The notes under the pieces are model-generated. The model had not been told where the DNA came from and searched no databases. It saw only the letters and a list, made by a program, of their open reading frames with translations. Positions 38,167 to 45,805 of a DNA stretch of 64,000 bases are shown here, piece after piece (within the stretch, counting starts at the first letter, position 1; each line of letters opens with the position of its first letter). The position numbers and the translations under genes are program-made. Source of the stretch: Acuticoccus sp. I52.16.1. Its GTDB lineage: Bacteria > Pseudomonadota > Alphaproteobacteria > Rhizobiales > Amorphaceae. Where the stretch lies: contig NZ_CP094828.1 of the NCBI RefSeq assembly GCF_022865125.1, positions 1,426,001 to 1,490,000 on the forward strand, read 5' to 3'.

Positions 38167-38486
38167 CGTCTCCTCTGCGGACGGCGGGCCGGCGCGGCAC
38201 GCCCCGGCGGCGTCGCGTCACCGGCCAGCATCCGGGCATTCGTCGAATGGCCGCCCATAGATTAGAAAAGCTCTAAACCAAGGCGGATGCGCGGCCGGAC
38301 GCCGGCGCACCGCGCCACGCCGTACAGGGCGAGAACGGTAATCTTCGCGTTTGGTTTCATTCCCCGCGCCGCGCATCGCGCGAATAACGCGGCCGCGCCG
38401 GGAGGTGCCGGCATGCGGCACGGCTTCGGCCCAGGAACGGTTGCTACTTCCAGGCGGAGGCATCCAGTCAATGGTGAGTGCATCCT
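38167..38486. other. 320-base gap between dps and the chemoreceptor gene
   Basis: The divergent genes dps and the chemoreceptor share this region. No protein gene is supported. It carries the iron-element-like inverted repeat near dps. The chemoreceptor side ends in TGGTGAGTGCATCCT, with a GGTGAG ribosome site before ATG 38487. Promoters for both genes are expected here but no clear -35/-10 pair stands out. Confidence 0.5.
38261..38277. promoter_or_regulatory. Candidate iron control element (Irr-box-like) upstream of dps
   Basis: ATTAGA-AAAGC-TCTAAA forms a 17-base dyad; on the dps strand it reads TTTAGA-N5-TCTAAT. The rhizobial Irr iron control element has TTTAGA-N5-TCTAAA, so 11 of the 12 arm bases match. 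The site is about 95 bases before the dps start. It suggests iron-responsive control of Dps, consistent with its ferroxidase role. Confidence 0.5.
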
Positions 38487-40514
38487 ATGCGGCTCGGCAC
38501 GCGAATCACACTCGTTGCGATGGTCCCCCTGATCGGGCTGACAACGCTCTGCGGCTGGATCCTCAGCGAACAGAGCCGCAAGTGGAGCAGTGCGATCGAC
38601 GCCGAGATCCGCCTCGAAAGTGCGCCGATCTTCAGCGTCCTCGCCCACGAGTTGCAGAAGGAACGCGGTCTCTCCGCCGGTTTCATCGGTGCCGGCGGCG
38701 GTGAGTTCAGCCCACTCGTCAAGGAGCAGTGGCGCCAGACCGACGCGGCGCAGGCGGCCCTCGTCGCCGCTCTCGACGACAGCGCTCTCATCGGCGCGAT
38801 GGCCGAGCAGGCGAACACCGCCGTCGCCGCCCTCGCCGCCCTCCCCCGCATGCGCGACCAGGTGACCACCCTCTCGACGACCATCGCCGACATGTCCGCC
38901 GCCTACACCGCGACGATCAACGAGTTGCTCACCACGGCCAGCATGGTCGCCTACGGGGTGGACGACCTCGAGACCAGCCGCAGCGCGTACTTCTACGTCG
39001 CGATCATGCGCGCCAAGGAGCAGGCCGGGCTGGAGCGTGCGGCGGGCGCCGCGGGCTTCGGCAAGGGATACTTCCCCGCCCCGATCTACCGGCGCTTCGT
39101 CCAGCTCGGCGCCGAGCAGGCCGCCATCTTCAACTTCGCCCTCACCCAGGGCACCGCTGCGCAGGGGCAGATCCTGTCCGAAGCACTCGACAGCCCGGTC
39201 TCCGCGCGGGTGGAGGCGCTGCGCGAGATCGCCAACGACAGCATCACCACCGGCAGTCTGGACGGCGTCACCGGCCCCCAATGGTTCGCCGCCTCCACCG
39301 AGCGGATCGACCTCTTGAAGACGGTCGAGAACCGCGCCGCCGAATCGTTGATCCAGCACGCCATGGCCCACACCGCCGCGGTGCGCACCGAGTTCATTCT
39401 GGTCGCCGCCGGCAACGCGGTGATGGCGATCATCTGCATCCTGATCTCGATCATCAACGTGCGCCGCCTGAAGCGGCCGATCGCCCGGATCGTGTCGCAC
39501 ATCGGTCAGGTCAGCGAGGGCATCACCGACCTGACGATCGAGGAGGCCGACCGGACCGACGAGATCGGCGACATCGGCCGGGCGCTGGAACTGATGCGTC
39601 AGAGCGAGGTGGAGCGTAAAGACCTGGTCGCCAAGGAGCACGCCCGCCACCTCGAGGACGAAGCCCGCGCGCATCGGGTGGAGGAGACCATCAACGAGTT
39701 CCAGAGCCGCGCCCAGCGCACCCTCGCCGACCTCGACGACATGAGCCACGCGCTGGCCTCGGTGGCCGAGAACCTCGCCAACACCGCCGACCATACGGCC
39801 CGCGATTCCACCGAGGCGAAGACCTCCTCCGACTCGGCCGCCCGCGCCGTGCAGGGCGTCGCCGCGGCGATCGAACAGCTCTACAGCTCGTTCGACGAGA
39901 TCTCATCCAAGGTCGGCGCCTCGCAGAAGGCGACCGACGAGGCCGCCAGCGTCGTCCACGACACGTCCTCGCGCGTGACCGGGCTCGCCAGCGCCGCGGA
40001 GGCGATCAACAACGTCGCCACGATGATCGCCGACATCGCCGAGCAGACCAACCTCTTGGCGCTGAACGCGACCATCGAGGCGGAACGGGCGGGGCCGGCG
40101 GGCCGCGGCTTCGCCGTCGTCGCCCACGAGGTGAAGGCACTCGCCAACCAGACCGCCGCCGCCACCAACGAGATCGCCAAGCAGATCGACGACATTCAGA
40201 AGGAGACCAAGACCGCCATCCAGGGCATCGACGACATTCTGTCGCGCTTCGACTCGCTGCGCTCGGCCGCGCTGGGGATCTCGTCGGTGATGGCGCAGCA
40301 GAGCGCCGCGACGCGCGACATCGGCGCCGGCGTGAAGGCGGCGTCGACGGGATCGTCCACCGCCTCGGACTCGGTGCGCGGGGTGGTCTGCGCCGCGGAG
40401 AAGACTTCCGCCGACGCGCACGACGTGCAACATACCGCCACCCGCATGAGCGACGTGACGAGCCAGCTGCGGACCGTATTCTCGCAGTTCCTCACCGAGG
40501 TGCGCGCCGCCTGA
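38487..40514 (+). CDS. Methyl-accepting chemotaxis protein with NIT sensor domain
   Basis: This 675-residue chemoreceptor has a membrane helix at about 8-28. A periplasmic NIT domain follows, recognised by [19 protein letters not shown], a nitrate/nitrite-sensing type. The second helix is at about 305-325 ([19 protein letters not shown]) and a HAMP domain follows. The C-terminal signalling hairpin (about 440-675) has its tip around [18 protein letters not shown] near 517-535. I start at ATG 38487, after GGTGAG. No other chemotaxis genes are nearby. Confidence 0.9.
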
Positions 40515-40532: not shown

Positions 40533-41663
40533 TCACACGACCCGTCGCCCCTCGCGCCACACCCCGCGTACCACCGGCACTTCGCCGGGCGCGCGGCGCC
40601 GCACGCGGACCATGTCGGCCCGCAAACCCTCCCGGAGGCGGCCGCGGTCGGCCATCTCCAGCGCGAGGGCGGGATTGGCGGTCACAGTCGCCATCGCCGC
40701 CGGCAGCGTCCACCCTTCCCGGTCGGACAGCACGAACACCGCCTGCAGCATCGAGAACGGCACATAGTCGGACGACAGGATGTCCAGCATGCCCATGTCC
40801 GCCAGTTCGCCGGCCGACACGTTGCCCGAATGCGAGCCGCCGCGGACCATGTTCGGACCACCCATCAGGATCTGCATGTCCGCCTCGCGCGAGGCGGCGG
40901 CGGCCTCCACCGTGGTCGGGAACTCCGCCAGCGTGACCCCGTCGCGGATCGCCTCCTCGACGTGTGCCAGCGTCGCGTCGTCGTGGCTGGCGATAATCAC
41001 CCCGCGCGACTTCGCCCGGTCCGCCAACGCCCGTCGGTTGCGGTCCGACCATATGGCCGCCCGCGCACGCCGCTCGGCCTGGAAGACCTCGAACTCGGCG
41101 TCGTTCATCCCGCTCTTGCCCTGGAAATAGACCTTGTAGGCCTCCAGCGAGCGGAACTGGCGCTGCCCCGGCGTGTGGTCCATCAACGAGATCAGCCGCA
41201 CCTTGGCGACGTCGTCGAACAACTCGAACCCGTCGACCGCCATCTCGTCCGACACCTCGCAGCGCAGGTGGAAATGGTGCTCGGCGCGCAACCGCCCCTC
41301 CTCCTCCGCCGCGACGATCGCGTCGGCGAACTCACGCGAGTCCTGCGACGTGATGTTGGCGTCCGCGTCGAGCCCCACGCGCAGCGCGTCGAGTACGGTG
41401 GTGATGCCGGACGCGGCGATCTGCGCGTCGTGCGCCTGGATCGCCGCCGTCATGTTCCAGCGCACCTTCGGGCGCGGGGCGATGTGGGTCTCCAGGTGGT
41501 CGGTGTGCAGCTCGATCAGGCCGGGGACGATGACATCGCCCTCGCAGTCCTCGCCGCGCGCATGGCCCTCGCCGATCGCGGCGATGCGTCCGTCCTCCAT
41601 CACGATGTGGCCGCGGATCACCTCGTCCGGCAGCACCAGGGTCGCGTTCGTCAATGTCGTCAA
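40533..41663 (-). CDS. phnM: Ribose methylphosphonate triphosphate diphosphatase PhnM
   Basis: This 376-residue amidohydrolase-fold enzyme removes pyrophosphate from alpha-D-ribose 1-methylphosphonate 5-triphosphate in the C-P lyase pathway. Signatures are GLIELHTDHLETHIAPRPKV (metal His residues), LISLMDHTPGQRQF, IASHDDATL and GGPNMVRGGSHSGNVSA. It overlaps the DUF1045 gene by four bases (ATGA) and is the last gene of that pair. Its 3' end converges with the chemoreceptor. Confidence 0.96.
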   Translation of the reverse strand: MTTLTNATLVLPDEVIRGHIVMEDGRIAAIGEGHARGEDCEGDVIVPGLIELHTDHLETHIAPRPKVRWNMTAAIQAHDAQIAASGITTVLDALRVGLDADANITSQDSREFADAIVAAEEEGRLRAEHHFHLRCEVSDEMAVDGFELFDDVAKVRLISLMDHTPGQRQFRSLEAYKVYFQGKSGMNDAEFEVFQAERRARAAIWSDRNRRALADRAKSRGVIIASHDDATLAHVEEAIRDGVTLAEFPTTVEAAAASREADMQILMGGPNMVRGGSHSGNVSAGELADMGMLDILSSDYVPFSMLQAVFVLSDREGWTLPAAMATVTANPALALEMADRGRLREGLRADMVRVRRRAPGEVPVVRGVWREGRRVV

Positions 41664-42337
41664 TGGGCTGGGTCCGGCTTGTCGTCGTCGACGGCATCCT
41701 GCGTCGCGATCACGGTAAAGGGTCGCCCAGGCTCGTCCTCGCGGTAGACGGCGTGGATCAGCGGATGCGGCGCTCCGTCGAGCGGGCCGAAATGCGCGCG
41801 CGCCGCGGCGGTGACCTCGGTCAGGCCGCCCGCGTCGAGCGGGCCCGACAGGGTCATGTGGAAGACGTAGCGGTCCATCACGTAGGGGTAGCCCCAGCGG
41901 TTGAGAAGCTCCAATTCGCGCCCGTCGAGCCGGTCCACCTGCCGCCGCGCGCGTTCCGCGTCCGACAGTGGAGCGCGCATCCGGTCGAACGCCTCCATCG
42001 TCGCCCGCGCCGCCTTGTCGATCGCACGGTCGGCGGAGCGGAAGGCCAGGAAGCGCGACAGCGGCGCGATGGAGAGCACCGGTCGCAGAGGCGGGCGCGC
42101 CGCCGCGAACTGCGCAAAATGCCTCAGCAGATCCCGCTCGGTGGTCCCGTGCGCCAGGCGGAAGGGGGCGCGCAAGGTCGCATGGAACCCATAGCGCGCC
42201 GGCACCTCGGGCAGGGCCACGGCGGGCGCGGCGGCGACGGTCTCACCGGGGCGAAACGGGGAACGACCGAGCCACGCGGCGGCGGCTTCGGCCAACGGCG
42301 ACCCTCGCGGTGGGGTCAGGTACACGGCGTAACGCAT
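41660..42337 (-). CDS. DUF1045 phosphonate-operon protein (2H phosphoesterase-like)
   Basis: This 225-residue protein belongs to the DUF1045 family, found in alphaproteobacterial C-P lyase operons. The two HxT motifs of the 2H phosphoesterase fold are visible: YGFHATLRAPF and YVFHMTLSGPL. I start at MRYAVYLTPP (42337). It precedes phnM with a four-base overlap. The 2H fold suggests a nucleotide or cyclic phosphate hydrolase working on ribose-phosphate intermediates; the exact reaction is not established. Confidence 0.92.
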   Translation of the reverse strand: MRYAVYLTPPRGSPLAEAAAAWLGRSPFRPGETVAAAPAVALPEVPARYGFHATLRAPFRLAHGTTERDLLRHFAQFAAARPPLRPVLSIAPLSRFLAFRSADRAIDKAARATMEAFDRMRAPLSDAERARRQVDRLDGRELELLNRWGYPYVMDRYVFHMTLSGPLDAGGLTEVTAAARAHFGPLDGAPHPLIHAVYREDEPGRPFTVIATQDAVDDDKPDPAH

Positions 42338-42452
42338 CGGTCCTTCAGCTTCCGGGGACGAACTATACCCAGGGGTCGGTCGTTTATCGTCAGATGTGCG
42401 TGGCATGAGCCGGAGCGACCGATGCTAGGAATGGACCACCCATATGGTCATC

Positions 42453-42468
42453 TCACACAAGAATGTGA
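42453..42468. repeat. Inverted repeat TCACA-N6-TGTGA
   Basis: TCACA and TGTGA flank CAAGAA in the gap between the DUF1045-phnM pair and the divergent rhodopsin-like gene. The arm order is the reverse of a CRP site (TGTGA-N6-TCACA). It may be an operator of an unknown regulator or part of the neighbouring Pho-box-like sequence. Confidence 0.35.
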
Positions 42469-42482
42469 CACTTCGTCGACAC
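42465..42482 (-). promoter_or_regulatory. Weak candidate Pho box upstream of DUF1045-phnM
   Basis: On the minus strand GTGTCGA, four bases, GTGTCAC form direct repeats with 11-base spacing, 128 bases before the DUF1045 start. The second half is close to CTGTCAC, the first is poor; I count 11 of 18 consensus matches. It faces the DUF1045-phnM pair, not the rhodopsin-like gene. Confidence 0.3.
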
Positions 42483-42537
42483 CACTTCGTGTGCCAGCAT
42501 TGCAACCCCGCCCTGCAGCTGTGACGCGAGGTCCACG

Positions 42538-43629
42538 ATGAGCACCACCATAGACTGGATCGCCGCCGCATGCCTCGGCCTGGGGGCGGCCGCGATCCTC
42601 GCTCTGGGCGGCTTTCAGACGCGGCGCCAGGCGACCCGCACCGGCCTGCACGCCCTCGTCTGCGCCATCGCGGCGATCCTCTACGTCGTGCTCGCCACCG
42701 GCGGCCGCTTCCTGGCGCTGGGGCCGCTGGAGATCGAGACGCATCACCTCGTCTGGCTCCTCGCCACGCCGCTCCTGTTGGCGGCGCTGATGGTCACTGC
42801 CGCGCCCGTCGGCCATACGCTGCTGCCGATGGCGCTGACGGTCCTCTTCGTCGACGCCGTGATGGTGCTCGCACGCGCCGTTGCCGCGGTGCAATATGGC
42901 GGTGCGGTGTGGATCTGGTTCCTGGTCTCGCTGGCCGCGATGGGGCTCCTCTACGCGCTGCTGTGGCGGCCGATCCGCGAGGCGGCGCATGCCGGCCACC
43001 CCGTCCGGGCCGACCTCTACGAGCGCCACGCCACGGTGCTGATGGCGCTGTGGGGCCTGTGGCCGGTGATCTTCTTCCTCGGCCCCGACTTCCAGGGCGT
43101 CATCGGGCACCCGTGGCAGCAGGCACTCTACGGCGTTGTCGACGTCGCCGCGTTCGCGGGCTTCGGCCTGCTGGTGGTGCTGGAGGACGAGCGGCTGATC
43201 CCGGTCGAAGACGAAGAGGACGAGGCGACGCTGCACCCCACGCTCCTGCGGCCCGCCCGGCCGGCGCCGGTGCTCCACACGACGCCCGCCACGGGGCGCG
43301 CCCTGGCGCGGGAGCGGCTGCTCGAGAATTTCTACCGCGGCGGCGAGGCAGCCCGGCTGGCCGCCGTGCGGGGGCGCACCGGCTCCAAGCGCGCACTCGA
43401 GGCGGCGGGCCCGATGGTGAGCCGCGCCATGGGCGCCCGCGAGCCGGCGCCGCCGACGGAGCTGCCCCTGCGCCGCCGCAAGCCGGGCCTGGTGACCAGC
43501 CTGCGCGTCGGCGTCACCACCACGCCCTTCGGCCAGTTGACGCGCGACGACGCGGTCCCGGTGGCGCTCGTCGCCGGCACCCTCTTCGTCATCGCCAACG
43601 CCTCGAAGATCGCCGGCAAGCGGCGCTAG
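42538..43629 (+). CDS. Bacteriorhodopsin-fold membrane protein lacking the retinal lysine
   Basis: This 363-residue protein has seven hydrophobic helices in residues 1-220. Helix C reads HHLVWLLATPLLLAAL (69-84), like the RYADWLFTTPLLLLDL of bacteriorhodopsin. Helix E has WFLVSLAAMGLLY (127-139), helix F WGLWPVIFFLG (172-182), helix G VVDVAAFAGFG (200-210). Against bacteriorhodopsin, Trp86, Pro91, Trp137, Trp182, Pro186 and Asp212 are kept, but Lys216 becomes Phe206, Asp85 Val72, Asp96 Ala83 and Arg82 His69. It therefore cannot form a retinal Schiff base at the usual site or pump protons in the usual way. A 140-residue acidic then basic tail ends in one more hydrophobic segment (340-354). The ATG follows GCGAGGTCCACG. 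It is divergent from DUF1045-phnM inside the phosphonate locus. Role unknown. Confidence 0.8.
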   Translation: MSTTIDWIAAACLGLGAAAILALGGFQTRRQATRTGLHALVCAIAAILYVVLATGGRFLALGPLEIETHHLVWLLATPLLLAALMVTAAPVGHTLLPMALTVLFVDAVMVLARAVAAVQYGGAVWIWFLVSLAAMGLLYALLWRPIREAAHAGHPVRADLYERHATVLMALWGLWPVIFFLGPDFQGVIGHPWQQALYGVVDVAAFAGFGLLVVLEDERLIPVEDEEDEATLHPTLLRPARPAPVLHTTPATGRALARERLLENFYRGGEAARLAAVRGRTGSKRALEAAGPMVSRAMGAREPAPPTELPLRRRKPGLVTSLRVGVTTTPFGQLTRDDAVPVALVAGTLFVIANASKIAGKRR

Positions 43630-43636
43630 CTCCGCC

Positions 43637-44248
43637 TCACGTCTCGTACTTCTCGAGGAAGGCCTCGACGGGGAGCGTCTGGAAATCCGGCAGGGCGGCG
43701 CGCAGGCGCTCGTGGCTCCAGTCCCACCACGCGAGCGCCATCAGCCGCTCGCCGACGCGCTGCGCGAACCGCGGCCGCAGCGGGCGCGCCGGCACCCCGG
43801 TCACCACCCAGTAGGGCGCGACGTCCCGCGTCACCACCGCCCCGGCGCCGACCACCGCGCCGTCGCCGATGGTCACGCCCGGCATCACCGTCGCGCCATG
43901 GCCGATCCACGCGTCGTTGCCGACGGTGACCGCGTCGGCACGGCGCCAGGCGAAGATCCCCGCGTCGTGCGCCGCGTCCTCGAAGTAGTCGCCCGCGCGG
44001 TAGGTGAAGTGGTGCGCGGCCGCCCGCTCGATCGGGTGGTTCGACGGGTTGAGAGGCACGTGCGCGGCGATGGAGGCGAACTTCGCCACGGTGGTGAACA
44101 GCACCTGCCCGTACTCGGTGATGTAGCTGTAGTCGCCGAGCGACGAGGCACTCAGCGAGGTGTGCGCGCCGACTTCGGTCCACCGGCCGAGCGGCGTGTC
44201 GATGACGCTGGCGGTGGGGTGGACGGTCGGCGCCGGTGAGAGCTTCAT
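43637..44248 (-). CDS. Phosphonate-operon hexapeptide acetyltransferase
   Basis: This 203-residue left-handed beta-helix acyltransferase shows hexapeptide repeats VTVGNDAWIGHGATVMPGV and IGDGAVVGAGAVVTRDV. The segment IAAHVPLNPSNHPIERAAAH is typical of the xenobiotic acetyltransferase branch. The family recurs next to phnL in C-P lyase operons of alphaproteobacteria. Its start overlaps the phnL stop (ATGA), so it is the third gene of phnK-phnL-acetyltransferase. It may acetylate aminoalkylphosphonates before cleavage, as PhnO does; this is inference. Confidence 0.9.
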   Translation of the reverse strand: MKLSPAPTVHPTASVIDTPLGRWTEVGAHTSLSASSLGDYSYITEYGQVLFTTVAKFASIAAHVPLNPSNHPIERAAAHHFTYRAGDYFEDAAHDAGIFAWRRADAVTVGNDAWIGHGATVMPGVTIGDGAVVGAGAVVTRDVAPYWVVTGVPARPLRPRFAQRVGERLMALAWWDWSHERLRAALPDFQTLPVEAFLEKYET

Positions 44249-44937
44249 GCCGCTTCCCGCGGCGCGAACCGCGTCACATCGACGACGCGCTCGCACACCG
44301 CGTCGCGCACCTCGGGGTCGTGGAAGATGCCCAGGACCGCGGTGCCCGCGGCCTTCTTATCGCCGATCAGCCGGACGACGACGTCGCGGTTGGCGTGATC
44401 GAGGCTGGCGGTCGGCTCGTCGACCAGCAGCAGGGGCGTCTTGCGGATGAAGCCGGCGGCGATGTTGACCCGCTGCTTCTCGCCGCCGGAGAACGTCGCC
44501 GGCGGCAGGTCCCACAGGCGCTCCGGCAGGTTGAGGCGCGCCAGCAGCACGGCGGCTTCCTCGCGCGCCGTCTCGCCGCCGCCGCCGGCCGCGGCCACGA
44601 GGTCGATCGCCGCCACCCGCGGAATGGCGCGCAGAAACTGCGTCACGTCGGCGATGGTCTCCCGCCGCACCGCGCCCATGTCGCGCGCGGAGAGCCGCGT
44701 GGTATCCACCAACACGCCGCGGTGGCGCACCCGGACTGCACCGGCATTGGCCGCGTAGGTGCCGGCGACGATCTTCAAAACCGAGCTCTTTCCCGCGCCC
44801 GACGGTCCGCCCAGCACCACACACTCCCCGGCCGCCACCTGGAAGGAGACCCCCTCGACGACCGGCAGCCGTACCCCGTCGCGCAGGTGCATGGTGAATG
44901 TCTTGGCGAGGTCTTCGACCTCGAGGATGGTCGTCAT
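44245..44937 (-). CDS. phnL: C-P lyase ABC-type protein PhnL
   Basis: This 230-residue ATPase-like protein belongs to the C-P lyase system but is not a membrane transporter subunit. Walker A is LGGPSGAGKSSVLK, signature FSGGEKQRVNIA, Walker B LLLVDEPTASLD. The TRLSARDMGAVRRETIADVTQ segment and the RAIPRVAAIDLV stretch match PhnL. It overlaps the acetyltransferase gene by four bases. phnK lies 43 bases upstream. Confidence 0.95.
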   Translation of the reverse strand: MTTILEVEDLAKTFTMHLRDGVRLPVVEGVSFQVAAGECVVLGGPSGAGKSSVLKIVAGTYAANAGAVRVRHRGVLVDTTRLSARDMGAVRRETIADVTQFLRAIPRVAAIDLVAAAGGGGETAREEAAVLLARLNLPERLWDLPPATFSGGEKQRVNIAAGFIRKTPLLLVDEPTASLDHANRDVVVRLIGDKKAAGTAVLGIFHDPEVRDAVCERVVDVTRFAPREAA

Positions 44938-44980: not shown

Positions 44981-45805
44981 TCAGACGGCCAGGATCGAGG
45001 AGACGAGGAGCTGCGTATAGGGGTGGTGCGGGTCTTCCAGCACCCGCTCGGTGAGCCCCTCCTCCACCACGTGCCCCCCCTTCATCACCATCATCCGGTC
45101 GGCCAGCAGCCGGGCGACGGCGAGGTCGTGCGTCACCAGGATGGCCGAGAGGCCGAGGTCGGCGACCAGACGGCGCATCACGTCGAGAACGCGCGCCTGG
45201 ACCGAGACGTCGAGCCCGCCGGTCGGCTCGTCGAGGAAGACGAGGCGGGGGTGGGTGACGAGGTTGCGCGCGATCTGCAACCGCTGGCGCATGCCGCCGG
45301 AAAAGGTCCGCGGGGCATCGTCGATCCGGTCGGCCGGGATCTCGACTCGTTCCAGCCAGTCGGCGGCGGTCTGGCGGATGTCGCCGTAGTGCCGGCCGCC
45401 GACGGCCATCAGCCGCTCGCCCACGTTGCCGCCGGCCGAGACCGCCATGCGCAGCCCGTCCGCCGGGTTCTGGTGGACGAAGCCCCAGTCGGTGCGGGCC
45501 AGGAAGCGCCGCTCGGCCTCGCTCAACGTGTCGAGGTCGCACACGCGGCCGTCGCGCATCCGGTAGGTCACGGCCCCGCTGGTGCGCGGGACGCGGTGGG
45601 AGACGGTGTTCAACAGCGTGGTCTTGCCGGACCCCGATTCGCCCACGATCGCCAGAACCTCTCCCGGCCACAGCGAAAACGAGACGTCGGCGCAGCCGAT
45701 GCGCGCACCGTAGGTCTTGGTCAGACGCTGCACGGTGAGGAGCGGCGGGTCGCCGGCGGGGGCGGTCGGGGGCGCGGTCTCGTCGGCCGCCGGGTGGGAG
45801 CGCAT
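44981..45805 (-). CDS. phnK: C-P lyase ABC-type protein PhnK
   Basis: This 274-residue ATPase binds the PhnGHIJ core complex. It has Walker A VGESGSGKTTLLNTV, a VHQNPADGLRM Q-loop, signature FSGGMRQRLQIARNL and Walker B LVFLDEPTGGLDVSVQ. The tail HHPYTQLLVSSIL resembles dipeptide-type ATPases, as usual for PhnK. The first 20 residues are an Ala/Pro-rich leader. It has a Pho-box-like repeat about 200 bases upstream and is separated from phnJ by two unrelated genes, so this part of the pathway seems to have its own promoter. Confidence 0.95.
   Translation of the reverse strand: MRSHPAADETAPPTAPAGDPPLLTVQRLTKTYGARIGCADVSFSLWPGEVLAIVGESGSGKTTLLNTVSHRVPRTSGAVTYRMRDGRVCDLDTLSEAERRFLARTDWGFVHQNPADGLRMAVSAGGNVGERLMAVGGRHYGDIRQTAADWLERVEIPADRIDDAPRTFSGGMRQRLQIARNLVTHPRLVFLDEPTGGLDVSVQARVLDVMRRLVADLGLSAILVTHDLAVARLLADRMMVMKGGHVVEEGLTERVLEDPHHPYTQLLVSSILAV

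Follow-up and report, generated by a model that had tools for sequence, protein, structure and literature searches.

Glycylhalorhodopsin and the bacteriorhodopsin/halorhodopsin-like proteins are retinal-binding, light-driven ion pumps. The fungal proteins Hsp30, Yro2 and Mrh1 are retinal-free opsin homologues. In haloarchaea, lysine-less opsins (ORPs) have been described (Becker 2016; PMC4915679). According to the available part of that paper, the lysine is replaced by Arg in group A and by leucine or another hydrophobic residue in group B, and HAMP/MCP transducers adjoin all but one of the 16 group A members and 17 of the 32 in group B. The pocket is lost and signalling residues are kept; some species have no retinal genes, and the proteins are placed nearest to sensory opsins (PMC4915679). 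Lysine-less opsins are also known from betaproteobacteria and freshwater bacteria (PMC10308929, citing Yamauchi 2019). Those of betaproteobacteria are termed Rh-noK, and the available text relates them to xanthorhodopsin and places them in tandem with a functional proteorhodopsin. The same text treats the FArhodopsins, for which a retinal-free role is suspected: in freshwater members the lysine is replaced by Q, T, L or R, a flotillin gene is the neighbour, and the genome also holds a pumping proteorhodopsin (PMC10308929). Yeast ORPs are mentioned, with general remarks on lysine-less opsins, in the accessible part of PMC7714340. Wherever retinal-free opsins have been found, their role is an open question in this literature as far as it is available.

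Here we describe a lysine-less opsin of Acuticoccus sp. I52.16.1 (Hyphomicrobiales, Amorphaceae). The window, the whole stretch of DNA that was analysed, covers 64,000 nucleotides of contig NZ_CP094828.1 (positions 1,426,001 to 1,490,000), and all coordinates below are counted from its first letter. The Acuticoccus clade closely resembles the haloarchaeal ORPs in having Arg or a hydrophobic residue at the site and a pocket that is no longer specially conserved, with an MCP gene near phnM in four of its genomes, and differs from them in its phn neighbour, as none is described for ORPs in the available text (PMC4915679). Like Rh-noK, the opsin is bacterial and lacks the lysine, but the tandem is missing, as each of the five Acuticoccus genomes has only one PF01036 match (compared with the available text of PMC10308929). 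It also departs from the FArhodopsins, as described there, since its neighbours in the window are a DUF1045 gene and a hexapeptide gene instead of flotillin, and there is no second opsin. The fungal proteins can be set beside it as retinal-free homologues by description, not by sequence. With glycylhalorhodopsin of Salinarimonas soli (8xx8) it shares the fold (E 1.7e-15 by sequence), but it is without lysine, acceptor and donor, and has an added linker and a probable eighth helix.

The original prediction held that a bacterial lysine-less opsin in a phosphonate locus, with a charged tail of 140 residues, would be new. As a claim on bacterial lysine-less opsins in themselves this is too strong, because such opsins are already in print, as the accessible parts of PMC10308929 and, for haloarchaea, PMC4915679 show, and a second lysine-less clade occurs in the same order. 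Lysine-less opsins as a class are not new. The Acuticoccus clade with its tail, conserved surface and DUF1045-phnM neighbour was not found in the open PubMed Central literature. The same literature yielded no paper on Acuticoccus and rhodopsin and none on glycylhalorhodopsin; among the matches listed there (title or start of abstract), none dealt with an opsin in a phn locus.

Fold and C-terminal tail of the opsin

The open reading frame at 42538..43629 (plus strand, stop codon counted) encodes 363 amino acids, and its product is a genuine homologue of type 1 opsins. Bac_rhodopsin (PF01036) matches residues 2-214 with 87.6 bits (E 1.1e-24; profile positions 3-218 of 224), where the Pfam cut-off is 24.6 bits. 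A phmmer search of the PDB gave 128 distinct sequences at E<=1; the best 60 of the 128 are microbial rhodopsins, and the top match is a cyanobacterial chloride pump (E 3.4e-18). The AlphaFold model, which was built from three sequences, has seven helices and a B-C hairpin (mean pLDDT 68.6, pTM 0.59; block pLDDT 67-92 across residues 1-230). When the model was compared with known structures by Foldseek, all 50 matches listed were rhodopsins (TM by target length 0.74-0.86), the best being glycylhalorhodopsin 8xx8 (E 3.5e-10, 26-28% identity). Retention of the rhodopsin fold, as first proposed, is thus borne out by Pfam, phmmer against the PDB, and the model with Foldseek alike. Another seven-helix family as a better home was looked for and rejected: Pfam offers none at E up to 1, and no NCBIfam model matches the reading frame.

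Alignments of the five Acuticoccus orthologues, and of the same five with 27 other opsins, delimit the seven-helix opsin domain to residues 1-218 (42538..43191, plus strand). The predicted charged tail of 140 residues is also there: 143 residues follow residue 220, with 23 K+R against 14 D+E. It includes a basic, proline-rich linker (residues 233-325; 43234..43512, plus strand) of low conservation, with 34% mean pairwise identity and, in five species, 13-25 K+R against 5-9 D+E. In the window's own genome there is also a second match (residues 222-336), with two stops. The tail ends with a probable eighth membrane helix (residues 336-358; 43543..43611, plus strand), proposed from hydropathy, model, identity and alignment. 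Residues 340-358 are hydrophobic (hydropathy 1.71), and the motif TPFGxL comes before the probable helix in four of the five orthologues. The model places a helix at 336-353 with low confidence (block pLDDT 48-62). Mean pairwise identity across residues 336-355 is 56%, compared with 41-50% for each of the seven helices and 34% for the linker.

Lysine site and retinal supply

A script reading of the window protein gave His69, Val72, Trp73, Pro78, Ala83, Trp127, Trp172, Pro176, Asp202 and Phe206, so the substitutions named in the original prediction (Phe206 for the lysine, Val72 for the acceptor, Ala83 for the donor, His69 for the arginine) are correct. The equivalents in bacteriorhodopsin, with sites paired partly by eye, are taken to be the following.

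Phe206: This residue (codon 43153-43155) lies at the Schiff-base lysine site, presumably K216 of bacteriorhodopsin; in helix G the pairing was taken from the phmmer alignment with the chloride pump. The five Acuticoccus orthologues have F, L, F, R and R here according to the alignment and site listing. No lysine is found within any helix of the five. Across residues 1-218, four orthologues have zero lysines and one has two, both in loops. As the lysine is absent from five species, its loss is clade-wide and no reading error; a sequencing error at the codon and a lysine moved to another helix position were both considered and ruled out on this ground. Loss of the retinal lysine, as predicted, therefore extends to all five orthologues, and no homologue among them has Lys at the site. 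The Phe itself is not constant. The gene keeps its position next to phn genes.

Asp202: We take this residue to be D212. The helix G aspartate is retained and is invariant in the five orthologues.

His69, Val72 and Ala83: These presumably correspond to R82, D85 and D96. The R82, D85, T89 and D96 sites vary across the orthologues. In the opsin of G003, Arg and Asp align at the R82 and D85 sites and are perhaps a relic.

Trp73, Pro78, Trp127, Trp172 and Pro176: These we equate with W86, P91, W137, W182 and P186. One orthologue each has L at the W86 site, F at W137, L at W182, F at P186 and A at P91. The signature residues called conserved at the outset are thus all present in the window protein, but only Asp202 is invariant.

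Retinal supply was examined through oxygenase genes. No Blh (PF15461) was found in the eight Acuticoccus genomes, nor in five tested genomes of the order with a second type of lysine-less opsin (see below). Among six tested genomes with a lysine-bearing opsin, Blh is present in five, in four of them on the opsin's own contig; the sixth genome is 75% complete. RPE65-type oxygenase (PF03055) is likewise missing from all eight Acuticoccus genomes, with two control genomes positive. The earlier remark that no retinal-synthesis gene is visible nearby can accordingly be widened to Blh- and RPE65-type oxygenases in the eight genomes. All eight (G000-G007) have a lycopene cyclase-like gene (256-280 bits), and because these matches are strong, Acuticoccus may make cyclic carotenoids; an enzyme known to cleave these was not found. 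Retinal could still come from other oxygenases or from outside the cell.

Ancestry and gene neighbourhood

Five of the eight Acuticoccus genomes, the window's own counted, have one PF01036 match each above the Pfam cut-off. In a further genome, G001, a diverged copy of 347 amino acids (L013:13714-14757) lies at the same place of the locus. It is 30% identical over residues 20-261 (hhalign probability 96.6, E 6e-10) and gives no PF01036 match at E 0.001, yet it retains the EHPVR motif and a similar tail. The remaining two genomes, G004 and G006, have phnM and no PF01036 match, so phnM dispenses with the opsin there. A search with the helix part of the window protein across 385 genomes of the class yielded, apart from the genome it came from, a single weak match, to the lysine-bearing G612 opsin.

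In the order, PF01036 matches occur in 34 of 397 genomes, five being Acuticoccus. From the other 29, 17 opsins were aligned; eight loci of one genus were left out, and four genomes had no locus. Nine of the 17 have Lys at the site and eight have Arg. A tree was made from 32 alphaproteobacterial opsins (five Acuticoccus, 16 from the order, and 11 of 30 class loci), with the G001 copy left out, haloarchaeal, fungal and betaproteobacterial rows absent, and the root placed for drawing only. The five Acuticoccus rows form one clade (support 98/96), which together with its nearest row, the lysine-bearing L054, makes up one side of a branch with 100/100 support. Since the two deepest rows of the clade have Arg and the remaining three Phe or Leu, the simplest order of change at the site would be from lysine to arginine to a hydrophobic residue, in a tree where the fork that sets G003 apart has 97/74 support, G007 has a long branch and four Acuticoccus rows are of unusual make-up. 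The eight Arg opsins of the order form a second lysine-less clade (100/100) amid lysine-bearing opsins and hence represent, by their place in the tree, a separate loss of the lysine.

In the window, the opsin gene and the phn genes run on opposite strands. Its divergent partner is a gene for a DUF1045 'putative phosphonate metabolism protein' (41660..42337, minus strand; PF06299, E 2.7e-43), which reaches 194.5 bits with TIGR03223, under the cut-off of 248.95. Next comes phnM (40533..41663, minus strand), for alpha-D-ribose 1-methylphosphonate 5-triphosphate diphosphatase (NF011983, 541.5 bits, above cut-off). On the other side and convergent with the opsin is a phosphonate-locus hexapeptide-repeat gene (43637..44251, minus strand; TIGR03308, 297 bits), followed by phnL (44245..44937, minus strand; TIGR02324, 285 bits) and phnK (44981..45805, minus strand; TIGR02323, 394 bits). 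PhnH, PhnG, PhnJ and PhnI are also encoded in the window. The divergent intergenic region measures 200 bp (42338..42537), assuming that the DUF1045 protein starts at MRYAV, and contains an inverted repeat, TCACA-N6-TGTGA (42452..42470), a possible operator. The repeat is clear in G000 (the window's genome), G005 and G002; G003 and G007 have an imperfect version, and G001 lacks it; a shared regulatory element across carriers was dropped as an idea, because the clear cases are three near relatives.

The order PhnM-DUF1045, opsin, hexapeptide-PhnL-PhnK is found in the window, G005, G002 and G003. In G007 and G001, DUF1045-phnM lies on one side and NMT1 and molybdopterin/xanthine-dehydrogenase-type genes lie on the other. 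The original placement inside a C-P lyase locus is therefore right for the window genome and three others, but not for these two, whose loci reject a constant C-P lyase linkage. The constant partner is DUF1045-phnM, not the whole C-P lyase set: it adjoins the opsin divergently in six of six carriers. In the opsin-less G006, the hexapeptide and DUF1045 genes adjoin with no opsin between them.

A NIT-HAMP-MCP chemoreceptor gene (38478..40514, plus strand; PF08376, PF00672, PF00015) is convergent with phnM and encodes a possible partner of the opsin. Orthologues are at the same place past phnM in G005 (74% identity) and G002 (62%), and another MCP (31% over 371 amino acids) is near phnM in G007. 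No MCP was found in the 15 kb examined of G003 or within about 2 kb past phnM in the opsin-less G004 and G006; G001 was not counted, since its contig breaks off about 1 kb beyond phnM.

Conservation and possible role

Conservation was compared among the five orthologues, with the diverged G001 copy left out of the counts. The 16 retinal-pocket sites have a mean identity of 43%, against 46% for all helix sites, and 65% of 2000 random sets of helix sites equalled or exceeded the pocket value. The topology was assumed from rhodopsins and from the count of basic residues, which is 6-9 K+R at the presumed inner ends and 0-1 outside. On this basis conservation rises toward the presumed cytoplasmic side (rho 0.25, p 2e-4, with residues treated as independent and depth taken as helix position, not coordinates). 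Identity is 0.352 in the outer loops, 0.366 in the extracellular third, 0.411 in the middle, 0.584 in the cytoplasmic third and 0.515 in the inner loops. Two lysine-bearing control groups, of five hand-picked rows each and overall more conserved (0.557-0.645 vs 0.45), gave rho 0.013 and -0.113, and their highest values (0.743 and 0.619) fall in the middle third. The shift is absent from the other lysine-less clade as well (rho -0.077) and thus does not characterise retinal-free opsins in general.

We lean, at somewhat better than even chances, towards reading the protein as a re-used opsin of the lysine-bearing type that is now a light-independent membrane protein and acts through its cytoplasmic face as adaptor or sensor. 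The ancestor would be a lysine-bearing bacteriorhodopsin/halorhodopsin-like opsin whose retinal site was lost and whose fold was re-used. The seven helices would serve as a membrane scaffold, and the conserved cytoplasmic loops (TxRQAxRT, TAxPxG, PVRxxLYxRHA, LEDxxL) would join the basic linker and the eighth helix in binding a cytoplasmic or membrane partner that the opsin anchors, senses for or regulates. The parts of this reading differ in strength. That the opsin is retinal-free and light-independent is very likely; that it works through the cytoplasmic surface is a little more probable than its opposite. A functional tie to phosphonate use is doubtful, and a partner from phosphonate metabolism would likewise be a guess from gene position. 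Improbable as a whole is the most specific version, in which a light-driven opsin converted from lysine through arginine to a hydrophobic residue, in steps that living species would still display, became a retinal-free, eight-helix adaptor or sensor in the membrane, and its conserved cytoplasmic face serves as the docking site for a phosphonate-breakdown enzyme or regulator (DUF1045/PhnM or C-P lyase machinery).

Among the rival explanations, the protein could be the decaying remnant of an opsin once driven by light, functionless or kept by chance. Its evolution is fast: orthologues in four genomes are 40-50% identical to the window protein, against 71-87% for phnM of these genomes; it is absent from two species, and the G001 copy has diverged beyond the Pfam model. 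On the other hand, the frames are open in all five orthologues (321-363 amino acids) with the C-terminal segment kept, and in the helix part all 10 pairs have their fewest differences at codon position 2 and their most at position 3, a pattern that selection on the protein would lead one to expect. The tail shows this ranking less clearly, and some pairs break it, which fits decay, but the patterned conservation by depth does not, and we judge a relic improbable. A chemosensory opsin like the haloarchaeal ORPs, whose helices would read a non-light stimulus and pass it to the MCP beyond phnM, is to us equally improbable. The MCP gene adjoins phnM, has its orthologues in G005 and G002 and a counterpart in G007, and haloarchaeal lysine-less opsins, with Arg or hydrophobic residues at the site, are often beside HAMP/MCP genes in the available text (PMC4915679). 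However, the MCP gene runs convergently to phnM and shares no operon with the opsin, its product has a NIT sensor domain of its own, G003 shows no MCP in the 15 kb examined, and the three genomes that carry the orthologous MCP are closely related, so that this may be one event.

A transporter or channel using the old ion path, for instance for phosphonate or a breakdown product, would suit a membrane protein within a catabolic locus and the invariant Asp202. The variable R82, D85, T89 and D96 sites, the least conserved extracellular side, and an opsin gene that runs against the phn genes in the window make it very unlikely. About equally unlikely is a photoreceptor that still binds retinal or a carotenoid non-covalently: the lycopene cyclase-like genes in all eight genomes and Trp73, Trp172 and Asp202 of the window protein would allow it, but neither Blh nor RPE65 oxygenase occurs in any of the eight, and the pocket sites are not conserved above the mean.

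The re-used, light-independent opsin that we favour offers experiments a particular surface and neighbour to start from, and the clade would make the re-use of a photoreceptor fold directly testable. It occurs in A. yangtzensis JL1095 and A. mangrovi B2012, with Arg and hydrophobic site states side by side and no second opsin to confuse tests.

The second lysine-less clade of the Hyphomicrobiales is similar to the flotillin-associated rhodopsins known from aquatic bacteria. Its loci are L014:8090-8803, L061:1459-2193 and L063:1438-2139, as well as L059, L060 (the same gene as in L014), L062 and L064-L066. By eye, the opsin follows a sugar-type ABC permease gene in L014, L061 and L063, and in L014 the gene immediately after it encodes a flotillin (Flot, Band_7).
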